Source of the DNA: a virus
IMG/VR virus record: IMGVR_UViG_3300031933_000067
Span: 1-23,083 of that record
Strand: one strand, 5' to 3'
Length of the DNA: 23,083 bases
The notes below the pieces were generated by a model that saw only the letters and a list, made by a program, of their open reading frames with translations, ran no database searches and had not been told where the DNA came from. The translations under genes and the position numbers were made by a program. Shown one piece after another: positions 5,648 to 22,914 of the stretch (the first letter of the stretch is position 1; every line of letters begins with the position of its first letter).

Positions 5648-6051
5648 TATATGTTGCTCTCTACTTCGTAAAATCTAAGGGTTATATTTGCCATGTAAGC
5701 AGTGTCGGGCGCTGCATATTGCCGCCTAAGTAGTTTACCCTCTATGGGGCTGGCTTTGTCTCTGGCAAACACTACGCTGTAAATTGTACCGTCTGCCATG
5801 GTTAGTTGGTATTTTTTACCTGGTACTGAGGCTTTAGCATGAAGCGCCTTAAATTCGCCCTTGGTAATCCAAACATCAGCGCCGCCTTGCAAGGTAATTG
5901 GCATACCCTTTATTAAAGTAGACTCACTTATAATAAGCGAGCCTCCCAGCGTTCTTTTAACGTCTTGCGTTACCGGTGTAAAGTCAAATTCATCTACCCA
6001 CTCAAGCGAGTCCGGTATGTTTATTGACTCTGTTTCGTCTGTTAAAATCAT
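5647..6051 (-). CDS. Small tail protein directly after tape measure (candidate distal-tail component)
   Basis: The 134-residue protein is joined to both neighbours by TAATG overlaps. It is predominantly beta. Recognisable stretches are INIPDSLEWVDEFDFTPV (residues 10-27), a central GMPITLQGGADVWITKGEF and a final MANITLRFYEV. The LEWVDEFDFTPVTQDVKRTLGGSLII pattern looks like a small barrel that could sit on the tail tube end. The position immediately downstream of the tape measure gene is where siphoviruses encode distal tail (Dit-type) or lambda gpM-type proteins. I do not recognise the family with certainty. The tail-component call rests on synteny and fold style, and it could be a different tip adaptor. 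Confidence 0.75.
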   Translation of the reverse strand: MILTDETESINIPDSLEWVDEFDFTPVTQDVKRTLGGSLIISESTLIKGMPITLQGGADVWITKGEFKALHAKASVPGKKYQLTMADGTIYSVVFARDKASPIEGKLLRRQYAAPDTAYMANITLRFYEVESNI

Positions 6052-12083: not shown

Positions 12084-12374
12084 TTATGACTCCTTAATTT
12101 TACAAAGTACATCATCCTCTCGGATAATTAACATTTTTTCGCCGTCATGCTTTACCTCTGTGCCAACGTGCTTACCAAACATAACAACGTCACCCGAATG
12201 AATGCCGCTATCTCTGATTGTGCCGTCTGGCAACGTGCCGTACTCTGGCGCAACAATAACAGTACCGGTTGTTGGTGGCTCTAATTCGCCCTGTAAAACA
12301 ATACCACCGGCTGATTTGTTTTCTACTTCAATGGGTTTTACTAAAATTCGGTCTTTGTGCGGATAAATTAACAT
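12084..12374 (-). CDS. groES: GroES-type co-chaperonin (Cpn10)
   Basis: The 96-residue product has the full length and layout of bacterial GroES. YPHKDRILVKPIEVENKSAG at the N-terminus matches the PLxDRVxVK...E..KSAGG signature. The mobile loop SAGGIVLQG (residues 21-29) keeps the IVL tripeptide that docks on GroEL. A roof-hairpin-like GTLPDGTIRDSG (46-57) is present, then GDVVMFGKHVGTEVKHDGEK and the final strand MLIIREDDVLCKI. It would cap the host GroEL and adapt it to phage proteins, as T4 gp31 does for the capsid protein. Unlike gp31, which is very divergent, this copy is close to the bacterial form. It starts at a TAATG overlap with the gpU-like gene and ends one base before the next gene, so it is an integral part of the tail-assembly operon. 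Confidence 0.93.
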   Translation of the reverse strand: MLIYPHKDRILVKPIEVENKSAGGIVLQGELEPPTTGTVIVAPEYGTLPDGTIRDSGIHSGDVVMFGKHVGTEVKHDGEKMLIIREDDVLCKIKES

Positions 12375-14171: not shown

Positions 14172-16178
14172 TTAAGATCCGCTTGCTTTATACATGCCGC
14201 GTGAGTCAACAATACCAGCACCAAAGTCGGTACGGGCGCGTATTTCAAAGCCGTCAACTTCAAAACCTGTGCGGGTTTCAATGTTTAGCTCTTCTTCACC
14301 TGCTAAAAACGCATATTCAAACGTATCAACCATCGCGTTATTAGCAAACGCTAACCAAGCGTTTTCGCTTACATCGTCTAAACGCGGCTCAACAATAACG
14401 CCGTACTTGCCTTTAAAGCTGTTTGTTTCTTGGTCGTTAGTTGGGTTAATAGCATTAAACAAAAGCTCTTCTGCTGTTGTTTCTAGCGTTGTAGGTACCA
14501 CAATATTTTGTAGCATTACATTCATGCGCTTATTATCTATAGTTGTTTGCTTACGCGCTAACTGGCGAACTTTTGATAATGCACCCTTAGATAAAGCAGA
14601 CGTAGCACCAGTAATAAGGTTTTTATGTTCAGCATGAAACAGGTTTTTACCATCAGCCATTAATGTTGCCTTGGCTGCCATGGCTTCAAAATCCCAACCT
14701 AATAACATACCCCATACTAAATCGCTTTGTAAACGTGAAGCAGACGCACCCCACATACCAGGTAAGCGAGTAAACGCATCCATATCATCGTTAATAAGCG
14801 TTTGGCGCGTAATAGAAAAAATACGGCCATATGTATGTAAGCGGTACTCTTCGCCTGTTTCGCTCATTGTTCCGCGTGTGTATTCACCGTGTTCATTCAG
14901 CTTTTTAAGATCTGGCGCATCACCTAAACCAAGAATGCGTTTTGATTTAAAATCGTTAAGCGTAGAACGGCGGCCAAGTGCCTCAAACGTTTTAGGAATT
15001 TCAGCATACTGAGCGCGCATAGTTTTATTTGCAACGTCTGCTAAAATTTTCGGAAAGTCTGAAGTTGAGTGCATGGCACGTTCTGCAACTTGCATTGGGG
15101 ACATACCGCGTACACTTTCACCGCTATCAATTAAAAACTGGCGCGCTGTTTCCATTAACGTTAAGCCGGTAAAGTCGCGGCCAGCTTCAGTAAGCTTAAT
15201 CGCACCAGGGTTAGCACGATACTCAAGCGCATTACCTAAACCAGCGCGGGTTGTTTCGGCTTGGTCGCGGCGTTTGTCAGACTCAAGACTAGGATCTTGA
15301 GTGCGTGTTTCTTTGCTTTGCTGGTTAGCTGCCATAACTGCCTTTGCGTGTGCTCTAAATTGAGTCGGTGTTTCGTTATCCAAAAACGCGCGTGACGCCT
15401 CAGATTCAGGTAAACCAGCGGCGCGAGCAATATCCATCATTTCAGATAAACTGGCGCGCGTGTTACCTTCTGGCTTTTCGCTGCGTTGTTCTTGGGTTTC
15501 TTTTTCGCCCTGTTCTTCAGTGCGTGTTTTACCTTCTGGTTTTTCACCTTCAGGCGTGTTGGCGCGCTTTTCGTTTGGCGCTTCGTTATTTGCTTGTGGC
15601 ATTTGTCGTTCCTCAGAAATAATATTTACTGGATATTTTTTGCTATCGCCGCCATCAAGGTTGCGAACGCCGTTTTGGGTTTCAAAAGAAACCGGAACAA
15701 TCGACAACTCTGTGGGTTCCCAATCGGTGGCCCGCATAATGGTCATTGCGTTTTCTTCTGCTGGTTTTTTCTCTGTGTATTCCCAAACGCGATAACCCAA
15801 AGAAAAATGGCGCAAAATTTTATCTTTAACGTCCTGAAAAACTTCATCAGCTTCAGGGCGCTTACTAAATCTAACCTTTCCTCGTAACTCGTTGTTTTTA
15901 ATGGTGTAATCTTCTGTTATACCAAAAACACCTTTAATGCCACCATACGATCTGTGGCTGTCAATTACAGATAAACCCTTTTGCAAACGGGCCTCTCTAA
16001 TTGAGTTTGTTGTTACGTCTAACTCTTCAATATATGGTTCAGACCAAAAACCACCGCGAACCCCGCCCTCACCGGTGGTAAAAACCACCTCAACGGTGCG
16101 ATCGTCCTCGTTAATTGATTCGGGATCAATCTCCGCTCGCATTTCGAGTTGTGGCAACTCTCTATTTTCAAATGGCAT
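14172..16178 (-). CDS. Prohead protease / scaffold-linker / major capsid protein fusion, 668 aa
   Basis: I take ATG 16178 as the start because AAGGG lies seven bases upstream. An in-frame ATG at 16205 lacks this. Residues 1-175 are a HK97/U35-type prohead protease, with GLSVIDSHRSYGGIKGVFG containing catalytic His75, HFSLGYRVWEY containing Ser126, and WEPTELSIVPVSFE. Residues 185-330 are a charged, low-complexity Glu/Gln/Lys/Arg linker with a duplicated EKPEG(K/N)TR element, resembling the HK97 delta (scaffold) region. Residues 340-668 resemble the Mu gpT-type major capsid family, with TLNDFKSKRILGLGDAPDLK, RIFSITRQTLINDDMDAFTR, GKNLFHAEHKN and IEARxD-like strands at the end. Fused protease/capsid proteins of this kind are known in other phages. 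Autocleavage would release the shell subunit. An internal start is listed separately. Confidence 0.9.
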   Translation of the reverse strand: MPFENRELPQLEMRAEIDPESINEDDRTVEVVFTTGEGGVRGGFWSEPYIEELDVTTNSIREARLQKGLSVIDSHRSYGGIKGVFGITEDYTIKNNELRGKVRFSKRPEADEVFQDVKDKILRHFSLGYRVWEYTEKKPAEENAMTIMRATDWEPTELSIVPVSFETQNGVRNLDGGDSKKYPVNIISEERQMPQANNEAPNEKRANTPEGEKPEGKTRTEEQGEKETQEQRSEKPEGNTRASLSEMMDIARAAGLPESEASRAFLDNETPTQFRAHAKAVMAANQQSKETRTQDPSLESDKRRDQAETTRAGLGNALEYRANPGAIKLTEAGRDFTGLTLMETARQFLIDSGESVRGMSPMQVAERAMHSTSDFPKILADVANKTMRAQYAEIPKTFEALGRRSTLNDFKSKRILGLGDAPDLKKLNEHGEYTRGTMSETGEEYRLHTYGRIFSITRQTLINDDMDAFTRLPGMWGASASRLQSDLVWGMLLGWDFEAMAAKATLMADGKNLFHAEHKNLITGATSALSKGALSKVRQLARKQTTIDNKRMNVMLQNIVVPTTLETTAEELLFNAINPTNDQETNSFKGKYGVIVEPRLDDVSENAWLAFANNAMVDTFEYAFLAGEEELNIETRTGFEVDGFEIRARTDFGAGIVDSRGMYKASGS
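15600..15616 (-). promoter_or_regulatory. Candidate internal ribosome binding site and ATG inside the protease-capsid fusion
   Basis: Inside the fusion gene the minus strand reads GAGGA, seven bases, then ATG at 15602-15600 (Met193, peptide MPQANNEAPNEKR). This falls exactly at the protease/linker border. Initiation here would make a 476-residue scaffold-linker plus capsid protein without the protease. The spacing and strength are as good as those of accepted starts in this window. Use of the site is inferred. Confidence 0.6.
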
Positions 16179-16201
16179 AAAATAACCCTTCTGTTTTAAA
16201 T

Positions 16202-16224
16202 ACACTGTACGTTTTAATCAGTGT
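16202..16224 (-). other. Inverted repeat in the leader of the capsid fusion gene
   Basis: ACACTG and CAGTGT form a perfect six-pair stem around an 11-base loop. It lies between the SGNH hydrolase stop and the fusion gene start. It could form a 5' hairpin in the capsid message. No T tract follows on the minus strand, so it is not a convincing terminator. Confidence 0.35.
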
Positions 16225-16231
16225 CGTGCAA

Positions 16232-17470
16232 CTATTTTTTTATCTTAATAAGCTCTAAATCATGTAGTTTTATTTCAACGTCCTGATTACCCATAGACTT
16301 TAATGTTACTGAAACTTCTACATTTGTTGCACTTGGATCTAGTGTTGTTGGTATAGATCTCATAATAAAGTTGTTGTAATCTTCTTGGAATATAGCAGTC
16401 GTAGCCTCGCCATTAAGCAAGAAATTATATTGCCTCCCAACGTTAGGTTTCAATGTAACCGACATCGATGAAATTTCAGCGAGAACTTCTTTAGCAATAC
16501 TTACAGTCGCTTTAGCTATAAATTGATCTGTTGGTGCTGGATTGCTAACTGAAACATTTTGAAATAACTTAGCGTCATCTCTACCACCTGTTGAGCCATC
16601 ACCAGCCCTAAGAATAAGTGAATCTCCGACATACTCAACACCAACCCCCGATATAGGCTGTGCGTAGAAAACAGTGAAAGAGTCTGGTGCTTGACCTGTA
16701 GCCCCCATACCTATACTTCCTGATGTACCAGTCAGCTCACTATTTACAACTAACTGTGTGGCTGTTGATGGGTAAGCACTCTCCAAGTTATCATTTAATG
16801 CTTTAGATATTACTTTGCCCATCAGGTATCCACCAGAAGAGTTCGGATGTAGTCTGTCAATGGTTACCTCATCCCATCTAATAGCATCTATTGCTAATGC
16901 GTTAAACTCATCGAAAGTTTCAGATATAGCGACGTTTGTATTATTGGCTGCAATATTCGCATAAGCCGTATTGATTATGTCAATCTTGGTTGTGTAATTG
17001 GGATGATTATCTCCGCGATAAGTGATTGGCGTTAATATCACTTTCATACCGGCAGCTACCAGTTGGTCAACAATACTCTGCATGTTGGCTATTATTACTG
17101 ACTCCGCTATTTGAGCATGAACGTCATTAGTGCCTAGCATAATTACAGCGACCTGAGCGCCTGTATCAATTACATCGGTCTGCAACCTATCTAATAACAT
17201 TTGTGTTGTATTACCAGCAATCCCAGAATCAGGCAGCATTTCAAAAAGCTGATTTGACTGTGCAAATGAGTTAGCTGGCCATCCTTTAGTATTTATTGAG
17301 TATAAAAATTGATTCTCAGAACTGCCAAGATCTGCTATTGAATCGCCAGTACATATGACACTTAGGTACTCACCGGATAATAGCTTTTTTTCTAGTGGCG
17401 GCAATTCCTGCTTATAAAAAACCGGTCTTAATACAGGTTTTAAAACATGGGTTAATACTGGCCTAAGCAT
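16232..17470 (-). CDS. SGNH/GDSL-type hydrolase with C-terminal beta-sandwich, 412 aa
   Basis: I choose ATG 17470, which overlaps the preceding stop (ATGCTTAG) behind GGTGG. A longer start at 17500 is possible. Residues 2-17 are four LxxV tetrapeptides (LRPV LTHV LKPV LRPV). The hydrolase domain spans about 33-225 with all SGNH blocks: GDSIADLG with nucleophile Ser44, Gly83 with Asn87 in SGIAGNTTQML, GTND at 113-116, and DRLHPN giving Asp205 and His208. Residues 240-412 form a strand-rich domain, perhaps carbohydrate-binding or structural. The family cleaves ester bonds, often acetyl groups on glycans, so a virion-borne enzyme that de-acetylates host surface polysaccharide is plausible. I see no signal peptide or membrane segment. 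Location between portal and capsid genes is unusual for such an enzyme. The substrate is unknown. Confidence 0.88.
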   Translation of the reverse strand: MLRPVLTHVLKPVLRPVFYKQELPPLEKKLLSGEYLSVICTGDSIADLGSSENQFLYSINTKGWPANSFAQSNQLFEMLPDSGIAGNTTQMLLDRLQTDVIDTGAQVAVIMLGTNDVHAQIAESVIIANMQSIVDQLVAAGMKVILTPITYRGDNHPNYTTKIDIINTAYANIAANNTNVAISETFDEFNALAIDAIRWDEVTIDRLHPNSSGGYLMGKVISKALNDNLESAYPSTATQLVVNSELTGTSGSIGMGATGQAPDSFTVFYAQPISGVGVEYVGDSLILRAGDGSTGGRDDAKLFQNVSVSNPAPTDQFIAKATVSIAKEVLAEISSMSVTLKPNVGRQYNFLLNGEATTAIFQEDYNNFIMRSIPTTLDPSATNVEVSVTLKSMGNQDVEIKLHDLELIKIKK

Positions 17471-17708
17471 AAAATCCACCATAAATAACCAGCTTTGCAT
17501 CGCCGGTTATTTCAAATTTTAATACAGCGTCTTTAAAGTCGGCGTAATTTGAAAAGTCGGCGGTTTTAGATTCTTCAAGCGGTATAAATACGCCATCATC
17601 TACTTTAATTTGCATTTGTAGTGCGCCAGTGTTGGCTTTAAATGCTAAAAGGTGCTCACCTTGCATTTGTATTTCATCAGTGCTGTTTTGTGCTGTTAAT
17701 AGCTTCAT
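17463..17708 (-). CDS. 81-aa protein of unknown function, first gene of the head unit
   Basis: The 81-residue protein begins MKLLTAQNSTDEIQMQGEHL and ends KFEITGDAKLVIYGGFYA. It is mostly short strands with no Cys, signal peptide or membrane segment, and looks like a small beta barrel or sandwich. The start is well supported by AAGGG shortly upstream and by a candidate promoter about 30 bases before the ATG. Its last eight bases overlap the SGNH hydrolase start, so the two are probably translated together. That makes it a possible partner or adaptor of the hydrolase, or a minor head decoration protein. I do not recognise the family. Confidence 0.75.
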   Translation of the reverse strand: MKLLTAQNSTDEIQMQGEHLLAFKANTGALQMQIKVDDGVFIPLEESKTADFSNYADFKDAVLKFEITGDAKLVIYGGFYA

Positions 17709-19623: not shown

Positions 19624-21618
19624 TCACCTATTTAACCAGTTTCCCCTTGCTTTGGCTTTTCGCCTTGCTGGTTTAACTTCTTGATTATTATTAACATTTT
19701 CCATACTTCCGCCTTGCTCAAGTGCTTTTTGCGTGGTATGCTCGTTTTTAGCTTGCTCCACCTTTTTAATGTTTGGGTAAAACATTTTTTCTCTTGCTAG
19801 CCAATCTTTTTCATCAAACCTATCTATTTGGGCCATTGCTGCGCCAGCACGTGCGTAAACACGACAATCTAAGTAGTGGTTATCGCGCCTTGTCTTTTCC
19901 CAAATATAAGTTATATAGCCGCGGTTGTCTTTCTTGGTTACTAGCTGCTCTGCTGTTAGTTGTTTAAAAAACTCTTCTTCGTATTGTGGAAAGTGACAAT
20001 AACCGGCTGGATACTGATCACCATCTACCGGTTTATCTAAATTAAACCATCGGTAAAGCTGCGTTTTAATAACGTCAACACCAACCCCCCAAAGCATAAT
20101 GCCTCGGGCTATTCGCTCGCCTCTAATATTTACATCAACCGGCCTTGGCGTTGAAAAGTTTTGTTTTAGTTTTTCATCGCCTTTTACGGGTATTACTCGG
20201 CGCGGATCGCCATAGCGCCTACAAAATGCGTAAACGTCTTGGGTGTCGTAACCTGAGTCAATACATACTTTTTCAGGTATTACTTCTATTCCCGCTGAGT
20301 TTTTGTATTTTCTATCTAAAAATTCGGTTAGTTTTTCTTGGGTTTCTTCTTCGCCTATTTTACCTGTAATTACACCGGCATCTATTGACCATGTTACTTT
20401 ATTTCTTCCCCAACCAACCACTTCATAAACTAAGTAATCTTTTTGTACGTCAAACCCTATGGTTATAAGTAAAACACCATCAGGCACACTGCATTTATCG
20501 TAAGTTTCACGCATATCATACAGGCGCTTCCAATCTGGCTGTTCGCCTTTTTCTCGCCACGTTCTGGCTAATATTGTGTTGTAAAAAACTTTCAAGGCTT
20601 CTGGCTCCTCTGCACAATCAACATATTTACGGGCCATACCTCTAACATCAATAAAAGGTGATGCAAAAGCACTACACTTATAGCCGTGGTGATGGGTTAC
20701 TTTTGGGTTTTGCGCTTCCCAATAGCCATTTTTAATAGAGTAACGGCGGTCTTTTTCTGACCATTCAGCACCGCATTCAGGGCAACCGTAAATCGCTTTT
20801 TCTGGTACTTTGTCGCCGTCACTGTCTATGGGTATTATTACGTTTTCCCACTGCAGTTCCTCTGCGTGATCACAGTGAGGGCAAGGCTGTTTAAAAACTC
20901 GCATATCTGAAAGTAAATATTCAACCTCTATTCGGCTTGCACCCTCAACCGTGGGTGAACATGCAACAAATAGCTTTGCCCTTTCTCCAAATGTTCTTGA
21001 GCGCTCCCATACAATTTTTATGGGATCACCCTCTACGCCTGAAACATACTTATCAACTTCGTCACAACAAACAATTCTACAGGCCCTTGATGCTAGGTCT
21101 GTTGGGTTTCTGGCTGAAACCATGGCTATTTGTCCGCCAGGGAACTGTTTATTCAAAATTGTGTTGCCGTTACCTCGCCGGTTATCACTAAATAAATCTT
21201 TTAAAACTGGCGTTGAGCTTATCATTTTAGAAAAACGCTCTTTACTCCACGCCTCGGCCATTTCCTTTTTAGGGTTAACAAAAATAATGGGTGATGGTTC
21301 AAGATGTATATAGTAACCAACTATATTATTAAGCAATTCTGTTTTTAATAGCTGTACGCAAGCCATAATAGAAACTTGGCTAACATTAGGATCGGTTGCA
21401 GAAAGCATGGGCCCTCTTGCAACCTCAACCCTTGACGTTCTCCATTGCCCCGGCTCTGCGCTGTTATCTGGTAGGTGTCGGTATGTGTCGGCCCATTCAA
21501 CCAAGTCCATTTTTGGCATTGGCTTCATGTTTTTTCTAAATGCTTCAGCTATACCTTTTTTTAGCGCTTCTATTGCTACCGGTGATGCCTTTAAGACATC
21601 AAATTCATCAAGGTTCAT
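19624..21618 (-). CDS. Large terminase subunit, GpA family, 664 aa
   Basis: This is the packaging motor and nuclease. N-terminal elements WADTYRHLP, EPGQWRTSRVEVARGPM and a Walker A region ACVQLLKTELLNN (Lys92, Thr93) are present. The usual Gly before Lys is Leu here, a variant I recall from other GpA proteins. Walker B is RIVCCDEVDKY (Asp186, Glu187), and FVACSPTVEGASRIE is the coupling segment. Four Cys (246, 249, 279, 282) form a zinc-ribbon-like insert. The nuclease half shows acidic residues at ITIGFDVQKD (Asp390), VCIDSGYDTQ (Asp454) and NHYLDCRVYA (Asp584). Length and order match lambda gpA (641). It overlaps the small subunit gene by 11 bases without a clear Shine-Dalgarno, which suggests coupled translation. 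GpA enzymes usually cut at cos sites, but I cannot locate a cos site here. Confidence 0.95.
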   Translation of the reverse strand: MNLDEFDVLKASPVAIEALKKGIAEAFRKNMKPMPKMDLVEWADTYRHLPDNSAEPGQWRTSRVEVARGPMLSATDPNVSQVSIMACVQLLKTELLNNIVGYYIHLEPSPIIFVNPKKEMAEAWSKERFSKMISSTPVLKDLFSDNRRGNGNTILNKQFPGGQIAMVSARNPTDLASRACRIVCCDEVDKYVSGVEGDPIKIVWERSRTFGERAKLFVACSPTVEGASRIEVEYLLSDMRVFKQPCPHCDHAEELQWENVIIPIDSDGDKVPEKAIYGCPECGAEWSEKDRRYSIKNGYWEAQNPKVTHHHGYKCSAFASPFIDVRGMARKYVDCAEEPEALKVFYNTILARTWREKGEQPDWKRLYDMRETYDKCSVPDGVLLITIGFDVQKDYLVYEVVGWGRNKVTWSIDAGVITGKIGEEETQEKLTEFLDRKYKNSAGIEVIPEKVCIDSGYDTQDVYAFCRRYGDPRRVIPVKGDEKLKQNFSTPRPVDVNIRGERIARGIMLWGVGVDVIKTQLYRWFNLDKPVDGDQYPAGYCHFPQYEEEFFKQLTAEQLVTKKDNRGYITYIWEKTRRDNHYLDCRVYARAGAAMAQIDRFDEKDWLAREKMFYPNIKKVEQAKNEHTTQKALEQGGSMENVNNNQEVKPARRKAKARGNWLNR

Positions 21619-22141
21619 ATTCTGAGAACTGCGTTAGCATTTGGTTTATTTCTGTGTCGAGTATTGTTCTTATTTCTTTTTGGTCTTGAAACTCAAGCGA
21701 GCCAGCTATTCTATTCGGCATAGATACTAGCTGCGCTCTAACATCAGAAAGTGATGCGGCAAATATTTCAATCTGTTCTTTAATTGGCATTAACAGCCCC
21801 ATTTTTTCGTTAAGCTCTATTTCAGCTTGCAGGGCTTGTGCTACTTCTCGGCGGCGGCGCGCATCTTCAATACTTATTCTTGATGTTGAGTCTATACCTT
21901 TGGCTTTATCAACTTCTTGTTGCATTTTCCAATGGATAAACTCTGCAGTATCAATTAAGTAAGATCCATTTGGCTGAACTTCGTGTGGTGCGCCCTCTCT
22001 GCAGTATTTTTTCAATGAGGTTATATTGGTACCGGTAATTCGTGACAATTCTGCCATTGTGACCTTTTCACCGGTGCCGGTGGCAAACTTTATAGTTGAG
22101 CTAGTGCCTTTCTTGTTACCACTGTTGTTATTTCCTGCCAT
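21608..22141 (-). CDS. Small terminase subunit, Nu1-like, 177 aa
   Basis: I use ATG 22141, one base after the response regulator stop and preceded by GGAAG. An in-frame ATG at 22174 would overlap the regulator by 32 bases without a ribosome binding site. After a basic, Asn/Gly-rich leader, residues 27-51 (VTMAELSRITGTNITSLKKYCREG) form a winged helix-turn-helix like lambda Nu1. NGSYLIDTAEFIHWKMQQEV is the wing and following helix. The segment SRISIEDARRRREVAQALQA with a long helix and KMGLLMPIKEQIEIFAASLS corresponds to the Nu1/phage DNA-packaging family. The C-terminal end overlaps the large subunit start, fitting the tight interaction of the two. Its role is recognition of packaging sites and stimulation of the motor. 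Confidence 0.9.
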   Translation of the reverse strand: MAGNNNSGNKKGTSSTIKFATGTGEKVTMAELSRITGTNITSLKKYCREGAPHEVQPNGSYLIDTAEFIHWKMQQEVDKAKGIDSTSRISIEDARRRREVAQALQAEIELNEKMGLLMPIKEQIEIFAASLSDVRAQLVSMPNRIAGSLEFQDQKEIRTILDTEINQMLTQFSEYEP

Positions 22142-22142
22142 G

Positions 22143-22595
22143 TTAAACTTCCCATTTTTCACCGTATTTTTCATTAAATCGGTTCATTTCTTCTAGCATT
22201 GGTTGGTAAGCTTTTTTTATGTTTTTAACTAAATTATGCTTTATAACCTGGTCAACAAGGTTGCAAATTGATACCGGCTTATGAATGTAATCTATCACCC
22301 CCATATGTATTGACTCTATCGCATCATCTAAAGAGTCGCTTGCCGTTACAAAAAGTATGGGTATATCTGTGGTTCTTTGATCTAATTTTAAATCTCTACA
22401 TAGCTCAAAACCGTTTTTTTCAGGCATGTATAAATCCAAAATTATATAATCTGGCTGTTCTTTTGCCGCTATCTCTAAAGCTGCCATAGGATCGCTAGTT
22501 GTTACAGCTTCAATACCATAACTTTCAAATGCGGCGGCAAACGCCATTAATTCAAGCTTGCTATCGTCAATAATAAAAACTTTGTTTTTAACCAT
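22143..22595 (-). CDS. Stand-alone CheY-like response regulator receiver protein, 150 aa
   Basis: This is a complete receiver domain with no output domain. Acidic pair Asp10-Asp11 lies in VFIIDDSKLE, phospho-acceptor Asp54 in YIILDLYMPEKNGFEL, Thr84 in ILFVTASDS, and Lys106 in DYIHKPVS. Residues 1-120 make the usual five alpha/beta units, and residues 121-150 add a charged helix ending GEKWEV. All residues for phosphorylation and Mg2+ binding are present, so it should accept phosphate from a histidine kinase. None is encoded here. The gene overlaps the upstream membrane coiled-coil gene by eight bases (ATGGTTAA) and ends one base before the small terminase start, so it is built into the packaging operon rather than a loose insertion. 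Function in the phage is unknown. A link to host signalling, motility or late timing is speculation. Confidence 0.95.
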   Translation of the reverse strand: MVKNKVFIIDDSKLELMAFAAAFESYGIEAVTTSDPMAALEIAAKEQPDYIILDLYMPEKNGFELCRDLKLDQRTTDIPILFVTASDSLDDAIESIHMGVIDYIHKPVSICNLVDQVIKHNLVKNIKKAYQPMLEEMNRFNEKYGEKWEV

Positions 22596-22914
22596 GGTTG
22601 TTTTTCCCGCTTTGAGACTTAGCCGATTCTAACGCAATTTTATATATTTTTTCGTCAAATTCACGCATGGCTTTATTAATTGTCTCTGTTAAAGCTTTAA
22701 TATCACCACTAACCGGCCCAATCTCTTCTTTCAATATTTCTCTAACGCGCTGCTCTGTTATTGCATTTTCAGCTTTGCTTTTAGCTGCGTTCGCTTTTTC
22801 ATTCGCTGCGTTTAAATCATTACGCAAGTTGTTAATCATTATAAACAGCCAACCAATAGGCAAGGCCATAACAACCCACAAAAAACGAACCACACTAAAA
22901 TCTATATTTTCCAT
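22588..22914 (-). CDS. Single-TM coiled-coil protein at the head of the packaging operon (DUF2730-like?), 108 aa
   Basis: The start at 22914 has AAGGCG six bases upstream. Residues 8-28 (VRFLWVVMALPIGWLFIMIN) form one membrane helix near the N-terminus. Residues 31-100 are a charged heptad-like coiled coil (LNAANEKANAAKSKAENAIT and LTETINKAMREFDEKI), and the C-terminus ends GKNNHG. The layout resembles the DUF2730-type proteins that precede terminase genes in Mu-like phages. It also superficially resembles an inner-membrane spanin or a signal-anchor lysis accessory. No paired outer spanin is visible. It overlaps the response regulator gene by eight bases, so the two are probably made together. 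Whether it anchors or partners the regulator is unknown. Confidence 0.75.
   Translation of the reverse strand: MENIDFSVVRFLWVVMALPIGWLFIMINNLRNDLNAANEKANAAKSKAENAITEQRVREILKEEIGPVSGDIKALTETINKAMREFDEKIYKIALESAKSQSGKNNHG

Follow-up and report, generated by a model that had tools for sequence, protein, structure and literature searches.

How lytic phages sense the state of their host in choosing the time of lysis is largely open. In phages of the Alphaproteobacteria, a CtrA-dependent 'lytic deferment' has been proposed, which its authors call speculative (PMC9437464). In PBSX, XhlA is required together with the holin and endolysin for holin-endolysin activity (PMC5589764). Phage receivers have themselves been described: the CheY-like and PhoB-like genes of R8W, H4/4, V22, A5 and PB15 encode receivers that are homologous to the one considered here or share its architecture, and a small membrane/coiled-coil gene lies upstream. 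In the available portions of those reports, the authors drew no link to lysis or to a membrane partner. Within the open full-text literature, with subscription papers and preprints outside the scope, no paper was found that joins phage CheY-like genes to lysis cassettes.

The window, by which we mean the whole stretch of DNA analyzed, is a 23,083-base fragment of a marine phage carrying late genes for the terminase, portal, capsid/protease and tail. A gene for a GroES-like co-chaperonin lies between the tail genes (12084-12374, minus strand; Cpn10 E=2.5e-17, phrog_3188), and a GDSL lipase/acylhydrolase gene lies between the portal and the capsid (16232-17500, minus strand; Pfam Lipase_GDSL_2 E=2.9e-19). 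The capsid looks fused to the maturation protease (14172-16205, minus strand; phrog_4523 over residues 13-676).

A Receiver without an Output Domain

The receiver gene and its predicted site of phosphorylation are located as follows.

22143..22595, minus strand: single-domain receiver (response regulator) gene, 150 aa; ORF with an ATG start and a Pfam Response_reg match
22434..22436, minus strand: codon of the predicted phosphoacceptor Asp54; from alignments, with the position computed from the ORF start

The product matches Response_reg (PF00072) over residues 6-117 with E=1.5e-24, and Pfam finds no second domain in its 150 residues, which leaves it without an output domain. In the alignment, D10, D11, D54, T84 and K106 are all kept. 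The first-pass annotation had described a complete receiver lacking an output domain, and this description is borne out. The AlphaFold model, built with an alignment of 12 phage receivers, is a canonical beta/alpha receiver (pLDDT 88) with a long C-terminal helix at residues 110-148; the 44 residues beyond Lys106 are predicted to be helical. The nearest solved chain is the N-terminal receiver of PleD. DivK and Spo0F are also among the PDB matches, and CheY is absent from the 17 matches at E<=1e-12. A PhoB/OmpR-type identity is ruled out by the absence of a C-terminal DNA-binding domain from both the Pfam results and the model.

Distribution, Selection, and Origin

A scan of IMG/VR with the window receiver as a single sequence gave no matches; relatives in that collection were recovered with a receiver profile, a single sequence being insufficient. 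Receivers 40-47% identical to that of the window occur in the Alteromonas podoviruses H4/4 and R8W, in the siphoviruses R9Y1-3 and in the IMG/VR contig L009. A further contig, L022, was found by a partner-based search, and its receiver is 80% identical to that of L009. More distant single-domain receivers are present in the myovirus V22, the schitovirus A5, the podovirus PT11-V19, phages PB15 and XX1924, and contig L157. Each phage receiver is directly preceded by a protein of ~93-125 aa that contains a coiled coil and a single stretch predicted to lie in the membrane. This pair is found in podo-, sipho- and myoviruses, and the recorded hosts are all Alteromonas.

Most of the remaining 'phage' receiver matches were records of bacterial appearance in the phage collection. 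In several records named as Listeria, Staphylococcus, Enterococcus and Acinetobacter phages, the receivers are response regulators of the usual bacterial kind, and the DNA looks to be that of a host. In addition, two contigs binned in MAGs of Neomarinimicrobiota (L025, PBFM01000045.1) and Muricauda (L026, NHBR02000063.1) have phage receiver loci like those of R9Y and Foturvirus and look like mis-binned phage contigs.

All five catalytic positions are kept in 18 of 19 receivers, among them that of L157, with Glu in place of the first Asp. The exception is the receiver of PT11-V19 (L006, 3998-4450), a phage pseudo-receiver that has lost Asp54, Thr84 and Lys106 and kept its membrane partner. Judged from these residues, the pair can persist in one lineage without phosphorylation. 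The dN/dS ratio was ~0.06-0.16 in the five homologue pairs with finite dS, showing at the codon level that the receiver genes are under purifying selection. Together with homologues of 40-47% identity in unrelated phages, this ratio indicates that the window ORF is not a chance one.

On their own profile, the window-type phage receivers score 220-257 bits, and the top-scoring receivers from cells, multidomain proteins, reach ~114-116 bits; among 369 Gammaproteobacteria the best match was 114 bits. In 84,980 species genomes, scanned by a method that requires short peptide patterns and can therefore miss distant host receivers, phage-like contigs in MAGs took the first two places (40-41% identity, E ~1e-36), and all remaining matches had E values of 1e-21 or worse. 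For the V22-type receiver, no close cellular relatives were found in 229 Gammaproteobacteria at a strict cut-off, an uninformative result given that the search had no positive control. In an 83-row tree the window-type receivers form one side of a branch with support 76/92. The phage copies group together, except that one long-branch cellular row lies inside the group, where support is weak (71/72). The tree is compatible with a single origin of all phage receivers.

Receivers are abundant in hosts and the V19 lineage has a degenerate copy, as might be expected if the window gene were a recent chance capture of a non-functional host receiver. This reading is barely credible given the low dN/dS, the conserved catalytic residues, the wide occurrence and the large score gap to cellular receivers, and for the family as a whole these comparisons refute it. 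A recent host-derived capture was also rejected, since the top genome-scan matches are phage-like and Gammaproteobacteria reach at most 114 bits. The earlier view that the phage maintains this gene, as opposed to having picked it up recently as cargo, agrees with the selection, residue and score data.

The Membrane Partner

The gene upstream of the receiver and its features are as follows.

22588..22914, minus strand: membrane-anchored coiled-coil partner, 108 aa, without a database family; ORF with homologues in L009 and L022
22588..22595, no strand given: 8-nt overlap ATGGTTAA of the partner stop and the receiver start; from ORF coordinates
22834..22890, minus strand: residues 9-27 of the partner, predicted to span the membrane; positive charges lie C-terminal to the span (C-in)

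The two ORFs share the eight bases listed, exactly the overlap between a TM/coiled-coil gene and the receiver that had been reported. The description of the upstream gene as DUF2730-like did not survive, because Pfam gives no significant match in the window partner and its relative in L009 reaches E=0.086, which is below the cut-off. The window partner is 26-29% identical to the partners in L009 and L022, with which it has a MREFDEK motif in common; tblastn found no homologues of it in phages. Its AlphaFold model is a single long helix over residues 6-104, of low confidence (pTM 0.30). A promoter scan upstream of the gene found no excess of motifs over shuffles. When partner types were compared by hhalign, the fotur and R9Y types were linked with E 9e-7 and the V22 and A5 types with 3.5e-12, and the window type gave nothing significant against the others. 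Beyond the fotur/R9Y and V22/A5 groups, homology of the partners across lineages is weak.

Topology was predicted from the distribution of charges. All 12 of the partners measured with an N-terminal transmembrane segment are predicted to be C-in, and all four XhlA-type partners measured are predicted to be N-in with an N-terminal coiled coil, which would place the coiled coil in the cytosol in both types. Some V22-type partner segments are weakly hydrophobic (1.2-1.3), and membrane insertion is less sure there. The Rz proteins of four V22/A5-type phages have a predicted topology opposite to that of the partners. The window partner was rejected as an Rz inner-membrane spanin, a type with N-in/C-out topology and a periplasmic coiled coil, because its charges predict C-in and those of the true Rz proteins of related phages predict N-in. 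It was also rejected as an XhlA, in which a C-terminal transmembrane segment comes after the coiled coil, given its N-terminal transmembrane segment and lack of an XhlA match; phrog_937 is matched by PB15-type partners only. Since the receiver travels with a membrane/coiled-coil gene across phages, the suggestion of a membrane-tethered pair made in the first-pass annotation is plausible.

Terminase Neighbors

Downstream of the receiver are the terminase genes.

21608..22141, minus strand: terminase small subunit (TerS); phrog_57 E=1.6e-25, likely start one base past the receiver stop
22148..22153, minus strand: GGGAAG, likely TerS ribosome-binding site in the receiver 3' end; from its position before the ATG at 22141
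19624..21618, minus strand: terminase large subunit (TerL), GpA type, ATPase and nuclease; profile matches

The longest TerS ORF starts at 22174. A start at 22141, where an ATG is preceded by GGGAAG, is likelier, and with this start the receiver ends one base before TerS, as had been stated. The position before TerS and TerL, together with a receiver within two genes ahead of the terminase in H4/4 and R8W, could mean that the gene links the packaging of DNA to a signal from the host, a coupling that the earlier annotation had listed among several possible roles. TerL was used as the query for finding phages related to the window, and the terminase relatives in named phages have ~50% identity. 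No receiver is annotated before TerS in Shewanella phage 1/44, Vibrio phages 1.055.O and 1.083.O or Pseudoalteromonas phage B8b, and an HMM scan of 27 terminase-related IMG/VR loci found a receiver ORF in none (0/27). Moreover, the receivers of R9Y, V22, A5, PB15, L009 and L157 adjoin lysis or tail genes, not the terminase. Because its terminase relatives lack it, the receiver is not supported as a regular member of window-type packaging operons, and a packaging role is very improbable. Upstream of TerS in the Shewanella and Vibrio relatives, no lysis-family match was found either.

Absence from this place in related phages had been coupled with nesting among the receivers of one host species as the signature of a chance capture. 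The absence at TerS was found, but the copy is not nested within one host species' receivers.

Lysis Genes beside the Pair

The pair stands among the genes for bursting the host in seven or more phages that otherwise differ from one another. By profile match, the pair is adjoined by an Amidase_3 endolysin in L009, a layout assigned to L022 by its similarity to L009, and by a GH108 endolysin with a 4-nt overlap in R9Y2. In H4/4 a phrog holin precedes the pair and a two-TM protein follows it, and R8W has the same layout. An Rz-like spanin, identified by profile match, overlaps the V22 receiver by 32 nt. In A5 an annotated endolysin lies three genes downstream of the receiver. The PB15 locus has an XhlA-family partner (phrog_937), an M15 endolysin and a 3TM holin, and L015 is arranged similarly, with a holin match. 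A multi-TM protein, an endolysin, Rz and Rz1 lie by the pair in L157. In PT11-V19 the product of the convergent gene has hydrophobic stretches, and that of the following gene resembles DUF5675 by eye. As to annotation, the V22 Rz (L016, 3916-4326) is recorded as hypothetical, and the V22 relative L018 has an Rz-like o-spanin match with an embedded Rz1-like lipoprotein (5744-6034).

In 12 of the 12 loci measured, the end of the receiver and the start of the following gene overlap by 4-35 nt, which suggests translational coupling of the two. The enzymes beside the pair come from differing, non-homologous families (amidase, GH108, lysozyme-like and M15), so the pair appears to have kept its place as the lysis genes changed. 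Synteny thereby establishes an association of the pair with lysis genes in most lineages. In the window no lysis gene is visible, the 1675-aa tape-measure candidate having been scanned by Pfam only. Upstream of the partner gene the contig stops short of any lysis gene, so the lysis link of the window phage rests on its homologues.

The junction of tail fibre and lysis genes is a common site of accessory genes, and the synteny may reflect such a hotspot together with late expression. The cassettes may also have moved between phages as modules. For both reasons, the lineages can be counted only in part as independent tests. The receiver could accordingly be a moron or auxiliary gene of this hotspot with an unrelated benefit, such as superinfection exclusion, motility or, as a PhoB, the phosphate response. 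Several copies do directly follow tail fibre genes, and the R8W copy was named PhoB by its authors (PMC8228385) and the V22 and A5 copies a CheY-like class II AMG in the host-recognition module (PMC7289586, PMC10579305). However, PhoB is excluded by the missing DNA-binding domain, the R8W protein having 153 aa. At every phage locus that was inspected closely, a membrane/coiled-coil gene comes before the receiver, and the receivers of H4/4 and V22 are within the lysis cluster rather than at its margin. An unrelated benefit is thus rather improbable.

A Possible Role in Lysis Timing

Based on the gene neighborhoods, the receiver may be the soluble half of a membrane-tethered, two-gene module of lysis cassettes that sets the timing of lysis from a host phosphorelay. 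We hold this reading tentatively, at a little short of an even chance. The module would belong to the lysis cassette of Alteromonas phages, and probably of related ones. The partner would be anchored in the inner membrane, where its cytosolic coiled coil would hold the receiver. Late in infection, host histidine kinases or small phosphodonors would phosphorylate Asp54, as the conserved site suggests, and the phosphorylated receiver would alter its contact with the partner. The changed contact would in turn hasten or delay the triggering of the holin or the release of the endolysin, and the phage would thereby tune its lysis time to the state of the host, for example to nutrient or envelope stress. 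The role in timing is favored by the anatomy, which is consistent with a lysis-module partner that keeps the receiver at the inner membrane, and by XhlA, which is the PB15-group partner and is needed with the holin and endolysin in PBSX. Against it stand the V19 pair, kept despite a degenerate receiver, the weak homology of partners between most lineages, the hotspot at the tail-fibre junction and the lack of a visible lysis gene in the window.

The intact phosphorylation site, the absent output domain and the predicted cytosolic tether to the membrane would also suit a decoy of host signaling. Late in infection, a tethered receiver would then be a sink for the phosphoryl groups of host kinases, for instance those of envelope-stress or motility phosphorelays, with adjacency to lysis genes reflecting shared late expression. 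Such a function is possible in any lineage, irrespective of its lysis enzymes, but leaves unexplained both the repeated adjacency, in overlapping frames, of lysis genes from different families and the use of XhlA, a lysis protein, as the PB15-group partner. We consider a decoy unlikely, if still deserving of attention.

The lysis-timing reading has a broader form, in which phages of different morphotypes share a phosphorylation-controlled lysis switch, with receiver and partner wiring two-component signaling to the holin and endolysin by protein contact and without transcription. This generalization is conceivable, if doubtful on balance. Intact receivers in the lysis cassettes of the cultured marine phages R9Y1-3, H4/4, R8W, V22, A5, PB15 and XX1924 make these proposals testable. 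The analysis also corrects the annotation of phage receivers as PhoB and as CheY-like auxiliary metabolic genes.

Comparison with Known Systems

The window receiver has in common with the single-domain regulators CheY, DivK and Spo0F the receiver fold, the Asp phosphoacceptor and the lack of an output domain. Unlike them, it is phage-borne, has an extended C-terminal helix and is probably coupled in translation to a membrane protein, as its relatives probably are to lysis genes. The window partner resembles XhlA of the PBSX-type cassettes, a lysis-cassette protein and the PB15-group partner, in being a small membrane coiled-coil protein, but it differs in its N-terminal transmembrane segment and in having no XhlA match. 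The described XhlA systems are not known to include a receiver.

The CtrA-dependent lytic deferment has in common with the timing role suggested here the idea that lysis is timed by a two-component signal which the phage takes from its host (PMC9437464). There, however, a host DNA-binding regulator acts on phage promoters, whereas here the receiver is encoded by the phage, has no DNA-binding domain and is tied to a membrane protein. No homology was seen between the window pair and the antiholins or lysis-inhibition proteins such as T4 RI. The likeness to these proteins is in the function proposed, the adjustment of the lysis clock from a signal, and the input here would be phosphorylation.
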